Source: Bdellovibrio reynosensis (lineage in GTDB: Bacteria; Bdellovibrionota; Bdellovibrionia; Bdellovibrionales; Bdellovibrionaceae). Taken from it: a stretch of DNA of 64,000 bases. The stretch spans positions 2,356,001 through 2,420,000 of the forward strand of contig NZ_CP093442.1 of NCBI RefSeq assembly GCF_022814725.1, read 5' to 3'. The notes under the pieces were generated by a model. It was not told the origin of the DNA. It did no database searches and worked only from the letters and a program-made list of their open reading frames with translations. Position numbers and translations under genes: made by a program. Below, in pieces: positions 40,992 through 48,777 of this stretch (positions are counted from its first letter, which is position 1; the number at the start of each line of letters is the position of its first letter).

Positions 40992-41444
40992 TTACTTACA
41001 AAACTGCTTAGCCTTAATCCAGTAAGCTGGTGAACAATAGTCATCTTGCCAGTGGTTTTTTATATTTGTGGTGTAAGCGTAAAACCACGTCACATGGTCT
41101 TTCTGCGAAGTCAGTTGAACTTGATCAGGCATGATATCTGGTACTTTACCGTTTAAAGAATAACACCAGCCGTAAGCGCGAAGTTCTGTTTGTGAAACGA
41201 TTTCCATGGCATCAATGCCTGTTGGCGTGTTGATGATCGAATTAAATCCGCTTTCTGTACCGATAAAAGGAATTTGATTTTGCGTAAGGATTTCGACCGT
41301 CAACGTGCCTAGGGATTTAGAAAGGTCTACTTCAGTTTTACCTTGATGAACGGGCTTCGTGTCACAAGGACCGAATACTTGCCAAGTGATGGCGTGAGCG
41401 TGAAAAGCAAATAAAGATAAGGCTAAAAAGACGACTGATTTCAT
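40992..41444 (-). CDS. Exported protein with DUF4430-like domain
   Basis: A 150-aa protein with a signal peptide (MKSVVFLALSLFAFHAHA) and a domain resembling DUF4430, a small beta-grasp fold related to cobalamin-binding transcobalamin tails. LTVEILTQNQIPFI, YGWCYSLNGKVPDIMPDQVQL and HVTWFYAYT follow its pattern of a core strand, YxWxYxVNG and a Trp-Tyr pair. Four cysteines suggest disulfides. Ligand unknown. It is convergent with the AT-rich genes before it. Confidence 0.6.
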   Translation of the reverse strand: MKSVVFLALSLFAFHAHAITWQVFGPCDTKPVHQGKTEVDLSKSLGTLTVEILTQNQIPFIGTESGFNSIINTPTGIDAMEIVSQTELRAYGWCYSLNGKVPDIMPDQVQLTSQKDHVTWFYAYTTNIKNHWQDDYCSPAYWIKAKQFCK

Positions 41445-41484
41445 GGCCCAACCTCTACCCTAGAGGTCGGCCATGCGCAAGCTT

Positions 41485-41853
41485 CTAGCGATCTTCGGGG
41501 CTTTCTGGGTTCTGTTTGCGAACTTCTTCCATATCGACTTCTTTGGCTCTTTTTACGATTTGCTCAAAGACTTCTTCGTTCACGGCCCCGGGCTGCATAA
41601 AGATGATATCGCGGTCTTTAATCACAGCAAGCGTCGGGATAGATTTGATATCAAAAGTCGCAGAGATTTCTTGTTCTAAATCAGTGTTGATTTTACCAAA
41701 AAGAACCTCTGGATATTTCTTAGCAACCGATTCAAAAATCGGAGCAAAACGTTTACATGGTCCACACCATTCAGCCCAGAAATCTAAGATGATAAGTTCG
41801 TTTTGTTCGATGGTATCTTTGATGTTGTCTTTAGTGACATCAATAAGGGACAT
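41485..41853 (-). CDS. trxA: Thioredoxin
   Basis: A 122-aa protein with the active site WCGPC (Cys30, Cys33) in DFWAEWCGPCKRF, the cis-Pro loop SIPTL and the usual end. It reduces disulfides in the cytoplasm. There is no signal peptide. The last 15 residues (DMEEVRKQNPESPEDR) are an extra charged tail. Single gene with a possible promoter in the adjacent 150-base gap. Confidence 0.92.
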   Translation of the reverse strand: MSLIDVTKDNIKDTIEQNELIILDFWAEWCGPCKRFAPIFESVAKKYPEVLFGKINTDLEQEISATFDIKSIPTLAVIKDRDIIFMQPGAVNEEVFEQIVKRAKEVDMEEVRKQNPESPEDR

Positions 41854-41963
41854 AAAGACTCCTTTTTTCCTAAATTCTGTCTTAGCTGATCCAGCCAGTT
41901 ATTCAATCCTTAAAACCCGTCATGTGATTACAGTACCGACAGGGGGGTGCCCACAAGCGGCTC

Positions 41964-42051
41964 TGTCTCATCTTGAGATGGGCCTTCTTCTGTATATTTC
42001 AGCTGAAGGGCCCAGAGCTTGCTTCTATTCACTGTGAGACAAAGTGTCTCA
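41964..42051 (+). promoter_or_regulatory. Structured leader before the 942-aa membrane protein
   Basis: Three hairpins lie in the 100 bases before the ribosome site. The first, TCTCA-tct-TGAGA, is at 41966-41978. The second runs 41979-42014 (TGGGCC with GGCCCA, extended by TTC/GAA around an inner CTG/CAG). The third is TGAGAC-aaagt-GTCTCA (42035-42051), only a few bases before GGAG at 42053-42056. GTCTCA in the first can also pair with TGAGAC of the third, so two exclusive folds exist. This is the layout of an attenuator or translational switch; the signal is unknown. Confidence 0.45.
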
Positions 42052-42063
42052 TAGGAGTAGTCC

Positions 42064-44892
42064 ATGACTTGGTTTAAAAAGATTCTAACTTTGATTGCCC
42101 TTATCAATCTAGTAGTTTCACCAGCCTTTGCTGGGGCCGCTCCTCAATGGTCTGAAAAAGAAAAAGCGCAGCTAGAGCAATATCGTAATTATCTGGAACC
42201 TCTTGGGTACCGCATGACCCTTGATTCTGAATCTAAAAAAGCCTTAGTCTATGACAAGAACACTAATAAATTGGCGATGGAAGTACCATTTGCTAAGGAA
42301 TCCCAACTTAGAAAGTTCTCACCGAATTCTTTAAATAAGATGCTAATGGACGAGATGGTCCGTGTTAAAGCAGCCTCGAAATCTTCCTGGTCACACTCCG
42401 TCAGAAACCTTCCTACTGAATCGGCGATTTTCTTCGTCGCTATGGGTGCGGTGGTTGCTGGTCAATTAATTACTAATTATTCGCAAAATCCGACGGCTAT
42501 GCAGCAACACATTGATCATTCCCTTTCGCCACTTGGAGTTTTTGGCTTTTTTACCTTCATGTATTCACAAGGTGTAACTTCAAACGTACTAGCGATGTAT
42601 ATGAAGAACCCAAAGTTTCATCACATGATTCCTTATCTTGGAATGACGGTTGGTGCTTTCTTACAAACATATCTTTCACAAGTAGTGTCAGATCCAAATG
42701 TTATGGCTTGTGCGAAAGTTATGATAGGCGGAAAAGTTTCGGATAAAGCGCTAGCTGCTGGTGCTGACCAAGATCCCTGCTCAAAAGCTTATGAGTATCT
42801 TGTAGTACATAAAAAAATCTGGGAGTTCGCACCAGGTATCGTTTCAATGCTAATCTCTTCTGGCCTTGCTGGTATGGCGCAATCAATAGTTACAAAGACC
42901 GTATTGCGCATTACTGGAGTTGATATTGCTCTATGGTTGGTTCCAGGTTCAATGCAGCTAAAAGGTATCAGACTATTACTAGTAAAAGGTCTTCAAATTA
43001 CTGCGTTCGTAGCACTTGATATGTGGTTGAACCGAATTGTCGTTTCCACATGGAAAAATATGTACGATGGCGCTGCCTTCTATGATGTTAACGACAGAAT
43101 TAATGAACAAGTTAACAACCTAAAGAAAAGCAAATGGTCAGGAAGCGATAAAGATCTTCAGGCTGAGATTAAAGACTTCAGAAAGAAAATGACTGATTGG
43201 CGTATGATGAATATGTCAGAGATTTATGAGGCACATCAAAATTGGACAAACGCCCTTCAGCAGCTAACTTCAATGTTTAATACAAGTCACAGCTTTTATA
43301 ATGCTTTCGTTAATGAAGTAAGAAACACTCACGACGAAAATAATCCTTATAAGTTCCTTAAGGTGACTTATCCACTTAATGGCGTGACGGCTAAGAACCT
43401 TTCCGACGATCGCAAAGACTTATACTTTATTAAGCCTCAGTATATTGAAAGTATGCAGATTGAAACTGTAAAAGACACAGTTACTTTAGCTGAAGGTATT
43501 TTAGCCTCAGCTGATAGCAAATACATTTTCGAACCAGAGAAGAAAAGATTGGCTTCAATCCTTGGTAAACTTCGCTCAGACAATCGGGATGTAATTGGAA
43601 CTGGGTTAATTGAGCTAAATCAGGAAATTTTCCATGCAGTACAGAACCTTTCGGCATCCACGCAATATCGTGACGCACTTAGAACTATCCAACAGTCATT
43701 AGGCAAACCTGATCCAATGATGGAACCGGGACGCGGATGGTTGGAATCTTATGCTCAAGCTCCAATGAACGAGGAAACTGTTAAAGGTGCGAGATACTAT
43801 CGCCAAGTGGGCATCTTCATGACACCGAAGGTGACAGACTATCTTGTCATGCAGATGATTTGCGGTCCAGATATCGAAAAAGGAGAAAAAGTAGTAAAAA
43901 ACTCTGTTGGCTTTCCATCTGTTTTCCTTCCACCGCAGATTAAGAACAGCAGTGACACTTTTACGGTGTGTGATCATCTAGGCATGGCGCCTTTAAGAGC
44001 GAAAGACATCTATAAATACAGTCTTCAAACTTCTTCTTCTAAAAAATATGAAGGAGCAATTGATTATCTTTCTAATGAAATTCGTCCTACAGTTTTAAAT
44101 TCAGACACAGAGTCTTTTCAAAACTGGTGGAAAAATAAAACCGAAGCGCAAATGCAACAAGCATTTGAAGAATACGGCAAAAGCTATGACCAGATCGTTG
44201 CAAAAATGGTAAAAGCTATTTACTACCCTGGCCGTACCTTCTTTAATGGGCGCCCCCTAGTAACAAATCCGGTTAAGACTGTTAAAATCTACTTTGATAA
44301 GATAACTCGAGATCGTTATCTTGAGGGTGGACCTATCTTTAATGGTGGCATGAACGCTTCCTTCCAGGAAGAGCGCGTTTACCTTGCGCTTCTATCAGAA
44401 CTTCTAAATCCATCAGAAAAATTTGATGTTGATATGGCTAAGATTCTGGAAAAAGAAGTTACACATCCAGTTCTTAAAGAAGTGGATACACAGTTTGCAG
44501 TATTAAATGGACTAATTAAGAGAATTAAAGTTGTTCAAGTCGAAGGACGTGAGGCTGTTGAATCTGATCTCGAAAACTATCAACTGGAAGAACAGCTAAC
44601 TCACATTCAAGCCTCTTTAAAAAAGGCTTCAGATGCTTTAGGCGTTGGCGACTCAGAATCAACTGCATCAATTAAGCTTAACAAGCAACAAAGAGATCTC
44701 GCTGTCACTGCACTTGAGCAACTGCAAAGTTTAGCAACAGAAGTGATGATGTATGGATCGATGGCGAACGCTGTAAGCTGGAGCAAAATTAGAAATATTA
44801 AGAAAATGGATATCGAACAGCAGAAGTTTAACAATGAAATTCAAGCTCGCTTGAGCGCTTTAAGAGGCGTTGCAATGCCAGGGAATCACTAG
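42064..44892 (+). CDS. Large polytopic membrane protein, unknown family
   Basis: A 942-aa protein with a signal peptide (residues 1-24, ...VVSPAFA). Hydrophobic segments follow at about 117-137, 155-178, 188-208, 255-278 and 285-325, then a long soluble, mostly helical region (about 340-942). ATG is preceded by GGAG. Motifs of enzymes or transporters were not found. The C-terminal half has heptad-like stretches (about 800-900). It is the first of three tightly linked genes; the next two encode lipoproteins. The arrangement suggests an envelope complex. Function cannot be assigned. Confidence 0.7.
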   Translation: MTWFKKILTLIALINLVVSPAFAGAAPQWSEKEKAQLEQYRNYLEPLGYRMTLDSESKKALVYDKNTNKLAMEVPFAKESQLRKFSPNSLNKMLMDEMVRVKAASKSSWSHSVRNLPTESAIFFVAMGAVVAGQLITNYSQNPTAMQQHIDHSLSPLGVFGFFTFMYSQGVTSNVLAMYMKNPKFHHMIPYLGMTVGAFLQTYLSQVVSDPNVMACAKVMIGGKVSDKALAAGADQDPCSKAYEYLVVHKKIWEFAPGIVSMLISSGLAGMAQSIVTKTVLRITGVDIALWLVPGSMQLKGIRLLLVKGLQITAFVALDMWLNRIVVSTWKNMYDGAAFYDVNDRINEQVNNLKKSKWSGSDKDLQAEIKDFRKKMTDWRMMNMSEIYEAHQNWTNALQQLTSMFNTSHSFYNAFVNEVRNTHDENNPYKFLKVTYPLNGVTAKNLSDDRKDLYFIKPQYIESMQIETVKDTVTLAEGILASADSKYIFEPEKKRLASILGKLRSDNRDVIGTGLIELNQEIFHAVQNLSASTQYRDALRTIQQSLGKPDPMMEPGRGWLESYAQAPMNEETVKGARYYRQVGIFMTPKVTDYLVMQMICGPDIEKGEKVVKNSVGFPSVFLPPQIKNSSDTFTVCDHLGMAPLRAKDIYKYSLQTSSSKKYEGAIDYLSNEIRPTVLNSDTESFQNWWKNKTEAQMQQAFEEYGKSYDQIVAKMVKAIYYPGRTFFNGRPLVTNPVKTVKIYFDKITRDRYLEGGPIFNGGMNASFQEERVYLALLSELLNPSEKFDVDMAKILEKEVTHPVLKEVDTQFAVLNGLIKRIKVVQVEGREAVESDLENYQLEEQLTHIQASLKKASDALGVGDSESTASIKLNKQQRDLAVTALEQLQSLATEVMMYGSMANAVSWSKIRNIKKMDIEQQKFNNEIQARLSALRGVAMPGNH

Positions 44893-44893
44893 A

Positions 44894-45976
44894 ATGATAA
44901 ATCTCAGGCTTTCTTATTTAATTTTCCTGCTTGTATTCTTAGGAATGCAAGCTTGCACATTTAAGAAGATGCCTGCGTCTAAAACTGAACAAATTAAAGT
45001 AAATGAAAGCGGCAATTCCTCCGCCAAGTCCCTGAATGAAATTATAAATAATGGTAGTAATGGTGAAGTAATCGCTGCTTTAGAGGCGACTTCTAGGGAA
45101 TCTCTAAAAGGTTTTATACACAGGGGCGACAGCATTCTGGATTTAATAATAAAACGCGGAGATGATGGCTTACTTTCTCTAGTACTCACTAAATATCTGT
45201 CGCCGATGAATTTTAATGAAGCGTCCGAATCTATTTTAAATAAAAACGTAAAGCTTAAAGAGATACACGATAGCTTTCTGAATAACACCATCAACGATCT
45301 TTTCTATGATTATCTTGGTTCTGAAGCGGTAAGCCGCGTGGAACTTGCCTTTGATGAGTTACAGGTAACAACTTCGGCATGTAAGGCAATATTCAATTCT
45401 GCAATTGGCAATAGATTCTATTCCATTACCGGGAAATCAATTTATGTCTACATGCGAGTGACAGATGATGCAGCATCCATTTTAAATAAGATTTTATCCA
45501 CAAAACAATGTGCCAGCCTAAAAAGTAATTTTGCCTCCGACGAGGTTAGGAATTTGTTTGAGCTTGAAATTATTCGCCAGGCAAGGAACAGATTCGAAAG
45601 CTCCAGTCTTTTACAGTTTTTTGCGACTCTAAATACCGTAAAAAACGCCTCAATTAATATTAATCAGGAATATCAGGTTAAAGCTGACCCTAGAATTCTG
45701 CTTTTCCTGTCTGATATGACCGATGACGAGTGGAATGAAAAGGTTGATAAATGGTGGCCATTTCTAACACAGTTTGTGAATTCGGAAATCACATCATTCT
45801 ATTTTTATCAATTAGATGACAATCCAGATATTTGTAACAGTAGGAAAAGAAAAGTCCATTCTAAATGTATAAACTCTAAAACAATTGTTCAGGAAATTTG
45901 TGCACCATTAGGTTTGAAATGTTATATTGAGCCCTATGATGACACTTGGCCTTCGCCTCCAGAGGTTATTCGATGA
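44894..45976 (+). CDS. Lipoprotein A of a related pair, ankyrin-like helical repeats
   Basis: A 360-aa protein starting at the ATG one base after the 942-aa gene stop, with an AGGGAA site. The signal peptide ends in LGMQAC, a weak lipobox (Cys21). The N-terminal part has short helix pairs like ankyrin repeats (IHRGDSILDLIIKRGDDGLLSLVLTKYL). Later segments, for example ELEIIRQARNRFESSSLLQFFATL, match the next protein (LEVQRQFQSEFSEPHLLNYLLNNY), so the two are paralogues. Function unknown. It overlaps the following gene by 4 bases (ATGA). Confidence 0.65.
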   Translation: MINLRLSYLIFLLVFLGMQACTFKKMPASKTEQIKVNESGNSSAKSLNEIINNGSNGEVIAALEATSRESLKGFIHRGDSILDLIIKRGDDGLLSLVLTKYLSPMNFNEASESILNKNVKLKEIHDSFLNNTINDLFYDYLGSEAVSRVELAFDELQVTTSACKAIFNSAIGNRFYSITGKSIYVYMRVTDDAASILNKILSTKQCASLKSNFASDEVRNLFELEIIRQARNRFESSSLLQFFATLNTVKNASININQEYQVKADPRILLFLSDMTDDEWNEKVDKWWPFLTQFVNSEITSFYFYQLDDNPDICNSRKRKVHSKCINSKTIVQEICAPLGLKCYIEPYDDTWPSPPEVIR

Positions 45977-47172
45977 GCCAATTAATTTTGCTGACAATAT
46001 TTATTTCATTAGTTGGTTGCTCGTTTTCTAAAAATAAGCCGCAAGATCCAACCATTTATGAAACTATAAAAACACGCAATTCAGAAGTTAAAGAACAACT
46101 AATTAGTTTGAGTTATAATGCCGATCTAAAGTTAATAGAATCAAAATTAAATAAGTTCACTGCTAAAGACCTTAATTTGCCTTGGGGAACTGATGAAAAT
46201 CTTTTACAGCTTTTAGTTAATCTAGGCAGTGAATCCCACTTGGATATTTTCCATAAGCATGGTCTTTCTCTTTATCTTCCGATTAAAAACGGAAACGCTG
46301 CCGAATATTTGTTAAAGCGGATTCATGACAAATTGAATAGAACTGGAAACTTCTCTCCTCAAGTTGAATTGGAAAATAAAGCTTTAACTTATTTGCATAA
46401 TCGACAGACCAACGACTATGAGATTCTAAAGGAAAGCATTAATAGAAATGATTTTGTAAGTGCCGCCATAGCCGTTAATTCCAAAGATATCTCGTGTGAG
46501 TTTTTGAACGAGGCCTTAATTTTAGGTGTCGTATCAGAAGAAGTTCTCACTCCACTGAATCGAATTCTTCAGTTTATTAATGATGTGGGATGTAAGGCAA
46601 ATTCAATAGCTCCTGGAAGGGCTGTTCAACTTTATCACCTTGAAGTTCAGCGCCAATTTCAATCAGAATTCAGCGAACCCCACCTATTAAATTATCTTTT
46701 GAACAACTATCCGAATCTAAGTTTAATGATTCCTGTTGGACCCAGTGGCTCACTTGTACATATCGGCGCATTGTATCGAATCTCAAAAATTTGTACTTTT
46801 GCTAATGAAGAAAGGTTTAAAAAAGGCCAGCCAAGCTGCTATATCGACCCAAACAGAATAGAAAAGGTAGAAGGCGTTACAGAGCAAGTCTTTGCTGTCT
46901 CCCAAAGGTATATCCAGTACTATTCACCTCCGAATCAGCTCGCTGAAGGATTTGATAATAAGGCTGATGTTTTTTTGAAAGAGATCGGCGCTAAAGAGAT
47001 TGAAAAATTTGATCTAGTGATTATCGAAGACGGTAAGCTAAAGTTCAGTCTAAGAACATTAGCTGTCGATCAATCTAGAAATGAGGATTTTACCAGTCCG
47101 ATTGTGTCCATCTATAGAGAGATGTTCGGGCAACCATTCGATTATAATCCGGATGCACCTGTCTCAAAATGA
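45973..47172 (+). CDS. Lipoprotein B of a related pair, ankyrin-like helical repeats
   Basis: A 399-aa protein with a good lipobox, SLVGC (Cys16), and an AGAGGT ribosome site inside the preceding gene. It shows the same layout as the preceding lipoprotein: repeat-like helices (DENLLQLLVNLGSESHLDIFHKHGL), a cysteine region (SKDISCEFLNEALILGV) and a shared LEVQRQF segment. A gene duplication is the likely origin. The stop codon lies inside a GTCTCA-AAA-TGAGAC palindrome. Function unknown; it should be attached to the outer or inner membrane facing the periplasm. Confidence 0.65.
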   Translation: MSQLILLTIFISLVGCSFSKNKPQDPTIYETIKTRNSEVKEQLISLSYNADLKLIESKLNKFTAKDLNLPWGTDENLLQLLVNLGSESHLDIFHKHGLSLYLPIKNGNAAEYLLKRIHDKLNRTGNFSPQVELENKALTYLHNRQTNDYEILKESINRNDFVSAAIAVNSKDISCEFLNEALILGVVSEEVLTPLNRILQFINDVGCKANSIAPGRAVQLYHLEVQRQFQSEFSEPHLLNYLLNNYPNLSLMIPVGPSGSLVHIGALYRISKICTFANEERFKKGQPSCYIDPNRIEKVEGVTEQVFAVSQRYIQYYSPPNQLAEGFDNKADVFLKEIGAKEIEKFDLVIIEDGKLKFSLRTLAVDQSRNEDFTSPIVSIYREMFGQPFDYNPDAPVSK

Positions 47173-47175
47173 GAC
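47161..47175. repeat. GTCTCA/TGAGAC palindrome overlapping a stop codon
   Basis: GTCTCA (47161-47166), AAA, TGAGAC (47170-47175), a perfect 6-bp inverted repeat that contains the TGA stop of the lipoprotein B gene. The same arms occur in the leader of the 942-aa gene at 42035-42051. Confidence 0.6.
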
Positions 47176-47307
47176 GTCTAACAAAAATTGTTATACCGTC
47201 TGAAGGTTTACACCTCAGTTCTAACCTGTAATATTTAAGAGATTTATAAGCTGGCGAGGATCTTGCTCTATATAAAACTATAATAATAACTATACTTGGA
47301 GTGAATT

Positions 47308-47970
47308 ATGAAAAAAGCCTTTGTATTTGGAGCAATATTCTTAGCTTCTTCTATTGGCATGGCTGCGCCGGTCAAAACTTCACGTGAACTATTGAAAGAC
47401 TACACTAAACAAATTAAAGAATTCATGTATAAAGGTGGAACAGCCAAATCGCTCGAGTCTTCATCAGCAGCACACAAAGAAATAATTAAGCAGATAAATA
47501 TTCCAGGTAAATCATTTGATCTCGAAAAGTCACTGAGCAATTCAGGAAGTGCCTCGAGAATTGAATCTATGATGACTGTTTTAGCGGCTAAAAAGCTAAG
47601 TACAGAGATTATTAAGACTGATGCTGTTGAAGGAAAATCAATGCTGGAATCAGCAGATGCAACCGCTAAGCTTATTGCTAACAATTACTTAAGAGACGCA
47701 AACAAGCCTTCAGAGTTAGGAACAAATCTAGAGTTGGTAACGAAAACTTTAGATAAAATGGAAAATGAATTACCGGCAAAAATTCTAGTAGACTTTTCCG
47801 TAACCGAAAGAGCTGCTTATGTTAAAATTATTGAAAAATATGACCTTTTAAATAACTCTCCTGGAGCTAAAAGAGCAGAAGACAACTTTGTTCAAGCGAT
47901 CATGGAAGTTAAAAAGGTTGATAGAACCAAAGCTCTTGAGTTAGTTAAAAAATTAAAAGAGTGCGTTTAA
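47308..47970 (+). CDS. Exported helical protein of unknown function
   Basis: A 220-aa protein with a signal peptide (MKKAFVFGAIFLASSIGMA). The mature part is almost wholly helical with many Lys, Glu and Ala and one C-terminal Cys (KECV). A GGAG site precedes the ATG. A 135-base AT-rich gap separates it from the lipoprotein pair, so it probably has its own promoter (for example around the TATAAT-like run near 47278). No family recognised. A strong terminator follows. Confidence 0.65.
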   Translation: MKKAFVFGAIFLASSIGMAAPVKTSRELLKDYTKQIKEFMYKGGTAKSLESSSAAHKEIIKQINIPGKSFDLEKSLSNSGSASRIESMMTVLAAKKLSTEIIKTDAVEGKSMLESADATAKLIANNYLRDANKPSELGTNLELVTKTLDKMENELPAKILVDFSVTERAAYVKIIEKYDLLNNSPGAKRAEDNFVQAIMEVKKVDRTKALELVKKLKECV

Positions 47971-47994
47971 AAATTTAAATAAAGTCTAAAAACT

Positions 47995-48026
47995 AAAAAG
48001 CCAAGGTCTGATCACCTTGGCTTTTT
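47995..48026. terminator. Bidirectional terminator
   Basis: AAAAAGCCAAGGT (47995-48007) pairs perfectly with ACCTTGGCTTTTT (48014-48026) around a 6-base loop. It serves both the exported-protein gene (+) and motB (-), whose stop lies within its right arm. Confidence 0.9.
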
Positions 48027-48777
48027 ATATTTCTACCTTCTTATCATCGGTAATTATGAAGATTTCAATTCTGCGGTTCATGGCCCGATGTTCTTCATTG
48101 TCATTCGGAACAATCGGCTTTTGATCACCATAGGAAATAGCTAGGAATCTTTTAGGATCAATTTTGTGATACTTAACGAAATAACGAACAACCGCAGTCG
48201 CACGGCCCCCGGCCAGTTCCCAGTTACTAGGAAAATACGAGTCCTCAATCGGTAAATCATCTGTATGACCTTCAATGATCACACGTTTTTGATGGGACTT
48301 TAAAACCTCAGCCACTTTATCTAACGAATTTAAGGCAGACATTTTTAACTTCGCCGAACCTGCAGGGAAAAACGTCGAAGCGGCTAGTGCAATGCGCACT
48401 CCTACGGAATCATGATAAACATCTTGAATTGATTTCTGTTTTTGTTCCCCGTTCATGGACTTATCCAGAGATCTTTCCACATAGTCTTCAACTTCTTTAG
48501 GTCCACCTTTACGTGGGAAGCCTGAAACGGGAGCTTCTAATTCTGCCATGGCTTCTTCTAAGATACTGCCACGGCCTGCAGCATCAGCTTTCGCTGCGGC
48601 TAAATGAAGATTTAGCTTAATTGATTCTTCAAATTGTTTTTGCTTACCTTCGTTAGCTTCAGACGTAGCATACATCACCACAAAAAACGCAAATAGAAGA
48701 GTAATGAAATCCGCATAAGAGACTAACCATCTCTCGTGATTTTCATGCTCTTCGTGTTTCTTGTGTTTCCTAGCCAT
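48025..48777 (-). CDS. motB: Flagellar stator protein MotB
   Basis: A 250-aa protein. One helix near residues 20-40 holds the proton-binding Asp (SYADFITLLFAFFVVMYA). A C-terminal OmpA-like domain binds peptidoglycan (VIIEGHTDDLPIED, NWELAGGRATAVVRYF, RRIEIF). With MotA it forms the proton-driven stator. It follows motA by 7 bases. The Asp-type helix suggests proton rather than sodium use. Confidence 0.93.
   Translation of the reverse strand: MARKHKKHEEHENHERWLVSYADFITLLFAFFVVMYATSEANEGKQKQFEESIKLNLHLAAAKADAAGRGSILEEAMAELEAPVSGFPRKGGPKEVEDYVERSLDKSMNGEQKQKSIQDVYHDSVGVRIALAASTFFPAGSAKLKMSALNSLDKVAEVLKSHQKRVIIEGHTDDLPIEDSYFPSNWELAGGRATAVVRYFVKYHKIDPKRFLAISYGDQKPIVPNDNEEHRAMNRRIEIFIITDDKKVEI

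Follow-up and report, generated by a model that had tools for sequence, protein, structure and literature searches.

Escherichia coli Fis recognizes a consensus that is a 15-bp dyad beginning with G and ending with C, and the ompA mRNA is an example of a transcript with a stabilizing stem-loop at its 5′ end. Little of the gene control behind bacterial predation has been mapped. Beyond the sigma factor FliA, for which we use the consensus TTAAG-N16-CCGATA / GCCGATA, a third of the attack-phase promoters of Bdellovibrio have no reported motif (Karunker et al. 2013, PMC3627812). In attack-phase nucleoids of strain HD100, only one further DNA-binding protein was described as notably abundant, the uncharacterized Bd1238 (Hocher et al. 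2023, PMC10627809), a helix–turn–helix (HTH) protein said to be similar to sigma-54 regulators. Here we analyse a stretch of 64,000 nucleotides from Bdellovibrio reynosensis (the window; positions 2356001–2420000 of a 3.58-Mb genome, with coordinates below given as window positions), in which genes for a 942-amino-acid (aa) protein, two lipoproteins and a 220-aa protein are accompanied by palindromes built from GTCTCA and TGAGAC. We propose that one of these palindromes, GTCTCANNNTGAGAC, serves as the operator for a regulon confined to the order Bdellovibrionales and that a dimer of a Fis-like protein most likely binds it, a reading to which we assign a probability of roughly two in three.

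The original prediction described the 942-aa gene and the two lipoprotein genes as a single unit with the same palindromic element on either side. Both palindromes are present where it placed them (Table 1), each in one exact copy in the window (0.00–0.01 expected from shuffled sequences), but they are different elements, with opposite orientation, different spacing and different conservation. TGAGAC-N5-GTCTCA, upstream of the 942-aa gene, occurs once in the whole genome even when spacers of 1–10 nt are allowed. For GTCTCA-N1-10-TGAGAC there are 15 occurrences, 14 of them with exactly N3, against one for the reversed control. The exact form GTCTCANNNTGAGAC is therefore found 14 times, with ~0.2 copies expected (3.58e6/4^12) and none for the reversed control, and allowing one mismatch gives 63 copies against 7. 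Most of the 14 exact copies precede genes for envelope or exported proteins. One of the copies with a single mismatch, GTCTCATCTTGAGAT, lies upstream of the 942-aa gene, where its core is the TCTCA/TGAGA pair at 41966–41978 that had been picked out as a related sequence.

The exact motif is present in 94 of the genomes of 100 relatives, often in 5–25 copies, with controls near zero. Within a phylum-wide set, enrichment is limited to its own order, and other classes are at control level. Alignment of 113 distinct exact sites shows a core of 15 bp with sharp edges, flanked by one base with a T/C preference and by nothing conserved beyond it. These sites lie between tandem genes (56), between divergent genes (21), between convergent genes (3) or within called open reading frames (ORFs; 32, several of which are a spurious ORF or the 3′ end of the upstream gene), with a median distance to the start codon of ~85 bp. 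The commonest target is the 942-aa gene, for which 23 of 39 family loci have a copy with at most one mismatch in the 190 bp preceding the start (0.03 expected from shuffles), mostly at −84 to −87 in the genus. The 220-aa gene comes second, with the motif 107–167 bp upstream of six orthologues, and the exact palindrome that had been read as the end marker of the three-gene unit belongs instead to the promoter of this gene. Other targets, assigned by reading the sequence, are mainly genes for lipoproteins, secreted enzymes, fibre-like adhesins, HD-GYP, PilZ and chemotaxis proteins. Thus, the palindrome is far from randomly placed, as had been anticipated, but it is found at many unrelated promoters, and it therefore defines a regulon. 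A literature search for the operator together with Bdellovibrio returned nothing relevant among open-licence papers.

The palindromes might instead function as RNA hairpins, either as terminators or as mRNA processing or stability elements, rather than as protein sites. Hairpins can form from them, and one genomic copy (L081) lies within an extended, A/T-flanked terminator-like stem. However, the arms of GTCTCANNNTGAGAC are fixed in sequence, with a spacer that is free in sequence and nearly always 3 nt long, there is no U-run, and the sites are found at promoters of divergent and tandem genes but hardly ever where two genes converge. We consider this explanation very unlikely for GTCTCANNNTGAGAC, although it fits the separate TGAGAC-N5-GTCTCA element. 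The narrower proposal of an intrinsic terminator was rejected because no flank is conserved beyond one base and most sites lack a following T-run. A matS-like chromosome-organizing site was likewise rejected, the copies being spread around the genome near promoters without clustering.

Our candidate for the protein that binds GTCTCANNNTGAGAC has an HTH_8 domain (PF02954; 49.8 bits, E = 2.7e-13, cut-off 22), and its nearest PDB entries in a phmmer search are Fis (1fip) and a Fis-like protein (6m10). At 143–144 aa it gives no PF00158 match, that is, it is without the AAA+ sigma-54 activation domain. The gene is single-copy in 96 of the 100 relatives. In the phylum set, the protein is found in ~100 of 104 genomes of the order, and elsewhere there are only weak matches to longer activators, so that protein and motif share the same phylogenetic range. 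Order members with only a weak match to the protein have 0, 0, 0, 0, 2 and 0 sites, whereas the mean is 8.2 (p = 1.4e-4, without correction for relatedness). The promoters of the Fis-like genes themselves carry 27 sites with at most two mismatches over 30 genomes, against 0.3 expected. In both the window genome and HD100 the operator fills the 15-nt spacer of a FliA-type promoter of the Fis-like gene (in HD100, TAAA-TTCTCAGCGTGATAC-GCCGATAG). Because an operator occupies the space between the −35 and −10 elements of its own promoter, the protein probably represses itself. The 15-bp length and dyad symmetry of the motif would also suit a Fis-type homodimer.

Two kinds of alternative sigma factor promoter occur near operators. 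Upstream of the 942-aa gene a predicted sigma-54-type promoter has the TGGCAY/TTGCW context of such promoters, and its GG-N10-GC with CTTGCT is conserved before the orthologues in ~35 of 40 family loci; transcription is predicted to start near 42034, 12 nt after the GC. Boxes resembling that of the 220-aa gene (TGGT..TTTTGCT) are present at the same distance in four relatives. FliA boxes occur at 6 of 67 operator targets but at only 1 of 165 neighbouring promoters used as controls (p = 0.003), usually 3–40 bp downstream of the operator. The sigma-54-type promoters raise the alternative that one of the ten AAA+ sigma-54 activators found in the genome uses the palindrome as its upstream activating site, the Fis-like protein being unrelated. 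The Fis-type HTH domains of sigma-54 activators bind similar palindromes, and at both the 942-aa and the 220-aa gene the site lies upstream of the promoter. However, none of the ten activator genes has an upstream site, except for one with two mismatches, and sites also flank FliA promoters, at which a sigma-54 activator plays no role. Together with the clustering of operators at the Fis-like gene and the weakness of the sigma-54 association over all targets, this makes the activator explanation unlikely.

Two additional features were seen in the neighbourhood of the operator. Most promoters of the 942-aa gene in the genus contain a conserved block, roughly TAGACAgnncnGTGcCC, 15–35 bp upstream of the operator (in the window 41930–41952, CGACAGGGGGGTGCCC). 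In three species (L086, L139 and L198) the exact motif is present inside flhG, ~170–200 bp before fliA. Conservation of the protein sequence could explain its presence there; otherwise, the gene for FliA would fall under the same regulator.

The second palindrome, TGAGAC-N5-GTCTCA, lies at the predicted 5′ end of the mRNA of the 942-aa gene, where the stem has a folding energy of −11.7 kcal/mol (z = −3.4). A hairpin at the same place is kept in 15 of 19 distinct leaders of relatives, compared with 1.6 expected from shuffles. Its arms vary, for example GAGAC/GTCTC, GATAC/GTATC, AAGGC/GCCTT and GAGGT/GCCTC; because they differ by compensatory changes, it is the pairing and not the sequence that is kept. 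Covariation was judged by a direct search with shuffles, MAFFT having misaligned the 3′ arms. Because most single leaders other than that of the window fold only modestly better than their shuffles, the case for the hairpin rests on the whole set. This hairpin probably protects the mRNA at its 5′ end or tunes ribosome access. An Rfam search of 41000–48100 gave nothing close to the gathering score.

The HD100 orthologue of the Fis-like gene is found five genes ahead of an endonuclease I gene, which we take to be Bd1244 (PMC2797640), and it is the sole HTH gene among the ten genes scanned there with Pfam. By gene counting, it is very probably Bd1238. We judge the chances to be about even that Bd1238, as a Fis-family protein specific to the Bdellovibrionales, is a sequence-specific global regulator whose operator controls an envelope and secretome regulon and links FliA- and sigma-54-driven transcription.

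Several observations weigh against a Fis-like regulator acting through GTCTCANNNTGAGAC, or against parts of that proposal. The operators at the Fis-like gene mostly have two mismatches, and some site-rich species (G024 and G029) have no operator at this gene. One genus (g6) has a Fis-like protein with an intact HTH, yet only 0–1 exact sites, and four genomes of the order with 3–11 sites gave no match to a Fis-like orthologue, possibly because the assemblies are fragmented. Sigma-54 boxes are found at 7 of 67 operator targets against 7 of 165 neighbouring promoters (p = 0.07); because the association is strong relative to shuffles but weak relative to real neighbouring promoters, we claim it only for the 942-aa and 220-aa genes. 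A sigma-54 promoter requires an AAA+ activator, and the Fis-like protein is therefore not the sole activator of the 942-aa gene. The leader hairpin is absent in HD100-like species, and strict gene counting would make the HD100 Fis-like gene Bd1239.

Taking these points into account, we favour a model in which a dimer of the Fis-like protein would bind GTCTCANNNTGAGAC. The protein would be made from a FliA (attack-phase) type promoter and would probably repress its own synthesis. At other promoters, those of genes for envelope, secreted and signalling proteins, the site is ~50–130 bp upstream of the start codon. The operators of the window would serve the 942-aa gene, with its sigma-54-type promoter and its transcript beginning in a stem-loop, and the 220-aa gene.

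Table 1. Features of the locus and of the candidate regulator gene (window positions, except for the Fis-like genes)
Feature	Position	Strand	Description
Operator 1, GTCTCATCTTGAGAT	41965–41979	.	85 bp upstream of the 942-aa ATG; one mismatch to GTCTCANNNTGAGAC; copies with at most one mismatch in family loci
Sigma-54-type −24/−12 promoter (predicted), GGGCCCAGAGCTTGCT	42008–42023	+	GG 42009–42010, GC 42021–42022; conserved GG-N10-GC with CTTGCT
Leader hairpin, TGAGACAAAGTGTCTCA	42035–42051	+	Predicted mRNA 5′ end; stem extendable to 42032–42054; just before the ribosome site AGGAG (42053–42057)
942-aa exported/membrane protein	42064–44892	+	ORF exact; conserved through the family Bdellovibrionaceae
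Lipoprotein 1 (360 aa) of the inserted two-gene cassette	44894–45976	+	Lipobox LGMQAC; 1-base gap after the 942-aa gene
Lipoprotein 2 (399 aa) of the cassette	45973–47172	+	4-base overlap with lipoprotein 1; always second in the pair elsewhere
Operator 2, GTCTCAAAATGAGAC	47161–47175	.	Exact motif; overlaps the lipoprotein 2 gene at its end; 133 bp upstream of the 220-aa gene
Sigma-54-like box, TGGCGAGGATCTTGCT	47252–47267	+	GG-N10-GC; before the 220-aa gene
220-aa exported protein	47308–47970	+	Same cluster immediately after the 942-aa gene in nearly all loci of the genus
Fis-like gene	G000:C1:1469974–1470402		~143-aa product; HTH_8; operators in own promoter
Fis-like gene of HD100	1174418–1174852		Orthologue, ~144 aa

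Comparison of synteny over 40 loci gives a usual gene order of DUF3015, Lnb_N/DUF4105, the 942-aa gene, the 220-aa gene and motB/motA. In the window genome, the DUF3015/DUF4105 pair is not at this place and the lipoprotein pair separates the 942-aa and 220-aa genes. The original prediction suggested that the 942-aa protein and the two lipoproteins could be a single envelope complex with its own control at the RNA or protein level. The ORFs, the 1-base gap and the 4-base overlap are exactly as it described them, and such tight spacing in the window genome speaks for a single complex with private control. However, none of the other genomes examined has the lipoprotein pair at this place, and the pair behaves as a two-gene cassette of constant order, found at other, unrelated places in ~10 genomes of the genus, including a second copy in the window genome. 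The three genes are therefore not a conserved unit, and the conserved partner of the 942-aa gene is the 220-aa gene. With the motif also distributed genome-wide, a single envelope complex under private control is extremely unlikely, although a private interaction of the 942-aa protein with the lipoproteins in the window strain alone is possible. What survives of the proposed control is the operator, the sigma-54-type promoter and the 5′ hairpin, all conserved before the 942-aa gene; the operator is not private to it.

Two other species (L037 and L038) hold different two-gene insertions at the same junction, composed of a DUF1254/DUF1214 lipoprotein gene and one further gene, and the junction between the 942-aa and 220-aa genes is therefore an insertion hotspot. 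At its other places, the lipoprotein cassette is often followed by genes for an ankyrin-repeat protein or other exported proteins (L269–L279). In two species (L040 and L048) the gene that immediately precedes the 942-aa gene is transposase-like (431–434 aa). By gene counting, Bd0173, an uncharacterized entry-phase protein with a signal peptide (PMC12546842), is near the HD100 locus and might be the 942-aa or the 220-aa product.

None of the four proteins of the locus has a Pfam or NCBIfam match above cut-off, in line with the earlier view that they belong to no nameable family. The two lipoproteins are paralogues, as had been suggested (BLASTP E = 3e-6, 23% identity). The 942-aa protein, which has homologues in 74 of the 100 relatives, including every member of the genus, had been called polytopic. 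Besides a signal peptide it contains about four hydrophobic stretches (118–136, 258–293, 302–322), and it is thus weakly polytopic, with a large soluble part. A PDB sequence search with this protein gave no match, and an AlphaFold prediction from five sequences was of low confidence (mean predicted local distance difference test score 43).

In summary, the analysis provides an operator, a list of its targets, an order-wide single-copy candidate regulator and a probable function for Bd1238, abundant in the nucleoid, for which the nucleoid study (PMC10627809) gives no binding site, regulon or function. In relation to the FliA (sigma-28) attack-phase regulon, FliA promoters are found at the Fis-like gene itself and at some of the operator-bearing genes, but GTCTCANNNTGAGAC was not reported in Karunker et al. 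2013 (PMC3627812). The palindrome upstream of a −24/−12 promoter at the 942-aa and 220-aa genes resembles an NtrC-type enhancer, although most sites are without a sigma-54 box and the candidate binder has no AAA+ domain. The leader of the 942-aa gene is similar to the stabilizing stem-loop of ompA mRNA in that its stem-loop stands at the predicted 5′ terminus and directly precedes the ribosome site. The element here is a short one of 20 nt, however, and a stabilizing role for it is putative. A further comparison is with E. coli Fis, with which the candidate regulator shares a C-terminal HTH_8 domain, the character of an abundant protein able to act at promoters and, in its proposed operator, a 15-bp dyad bounded by G and C. 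The Fis-like protein differs in being order-specific, in its FliA-type promoter, in the operators within that promoter and in its N-terminal ~85 residues, which have no match to Fis. Furthermore, whereas Fis recognizes a loose, AT-rich consensus at hundreds of places, the Bdellovibrionales site is a strict 12-base palindrome found at few.

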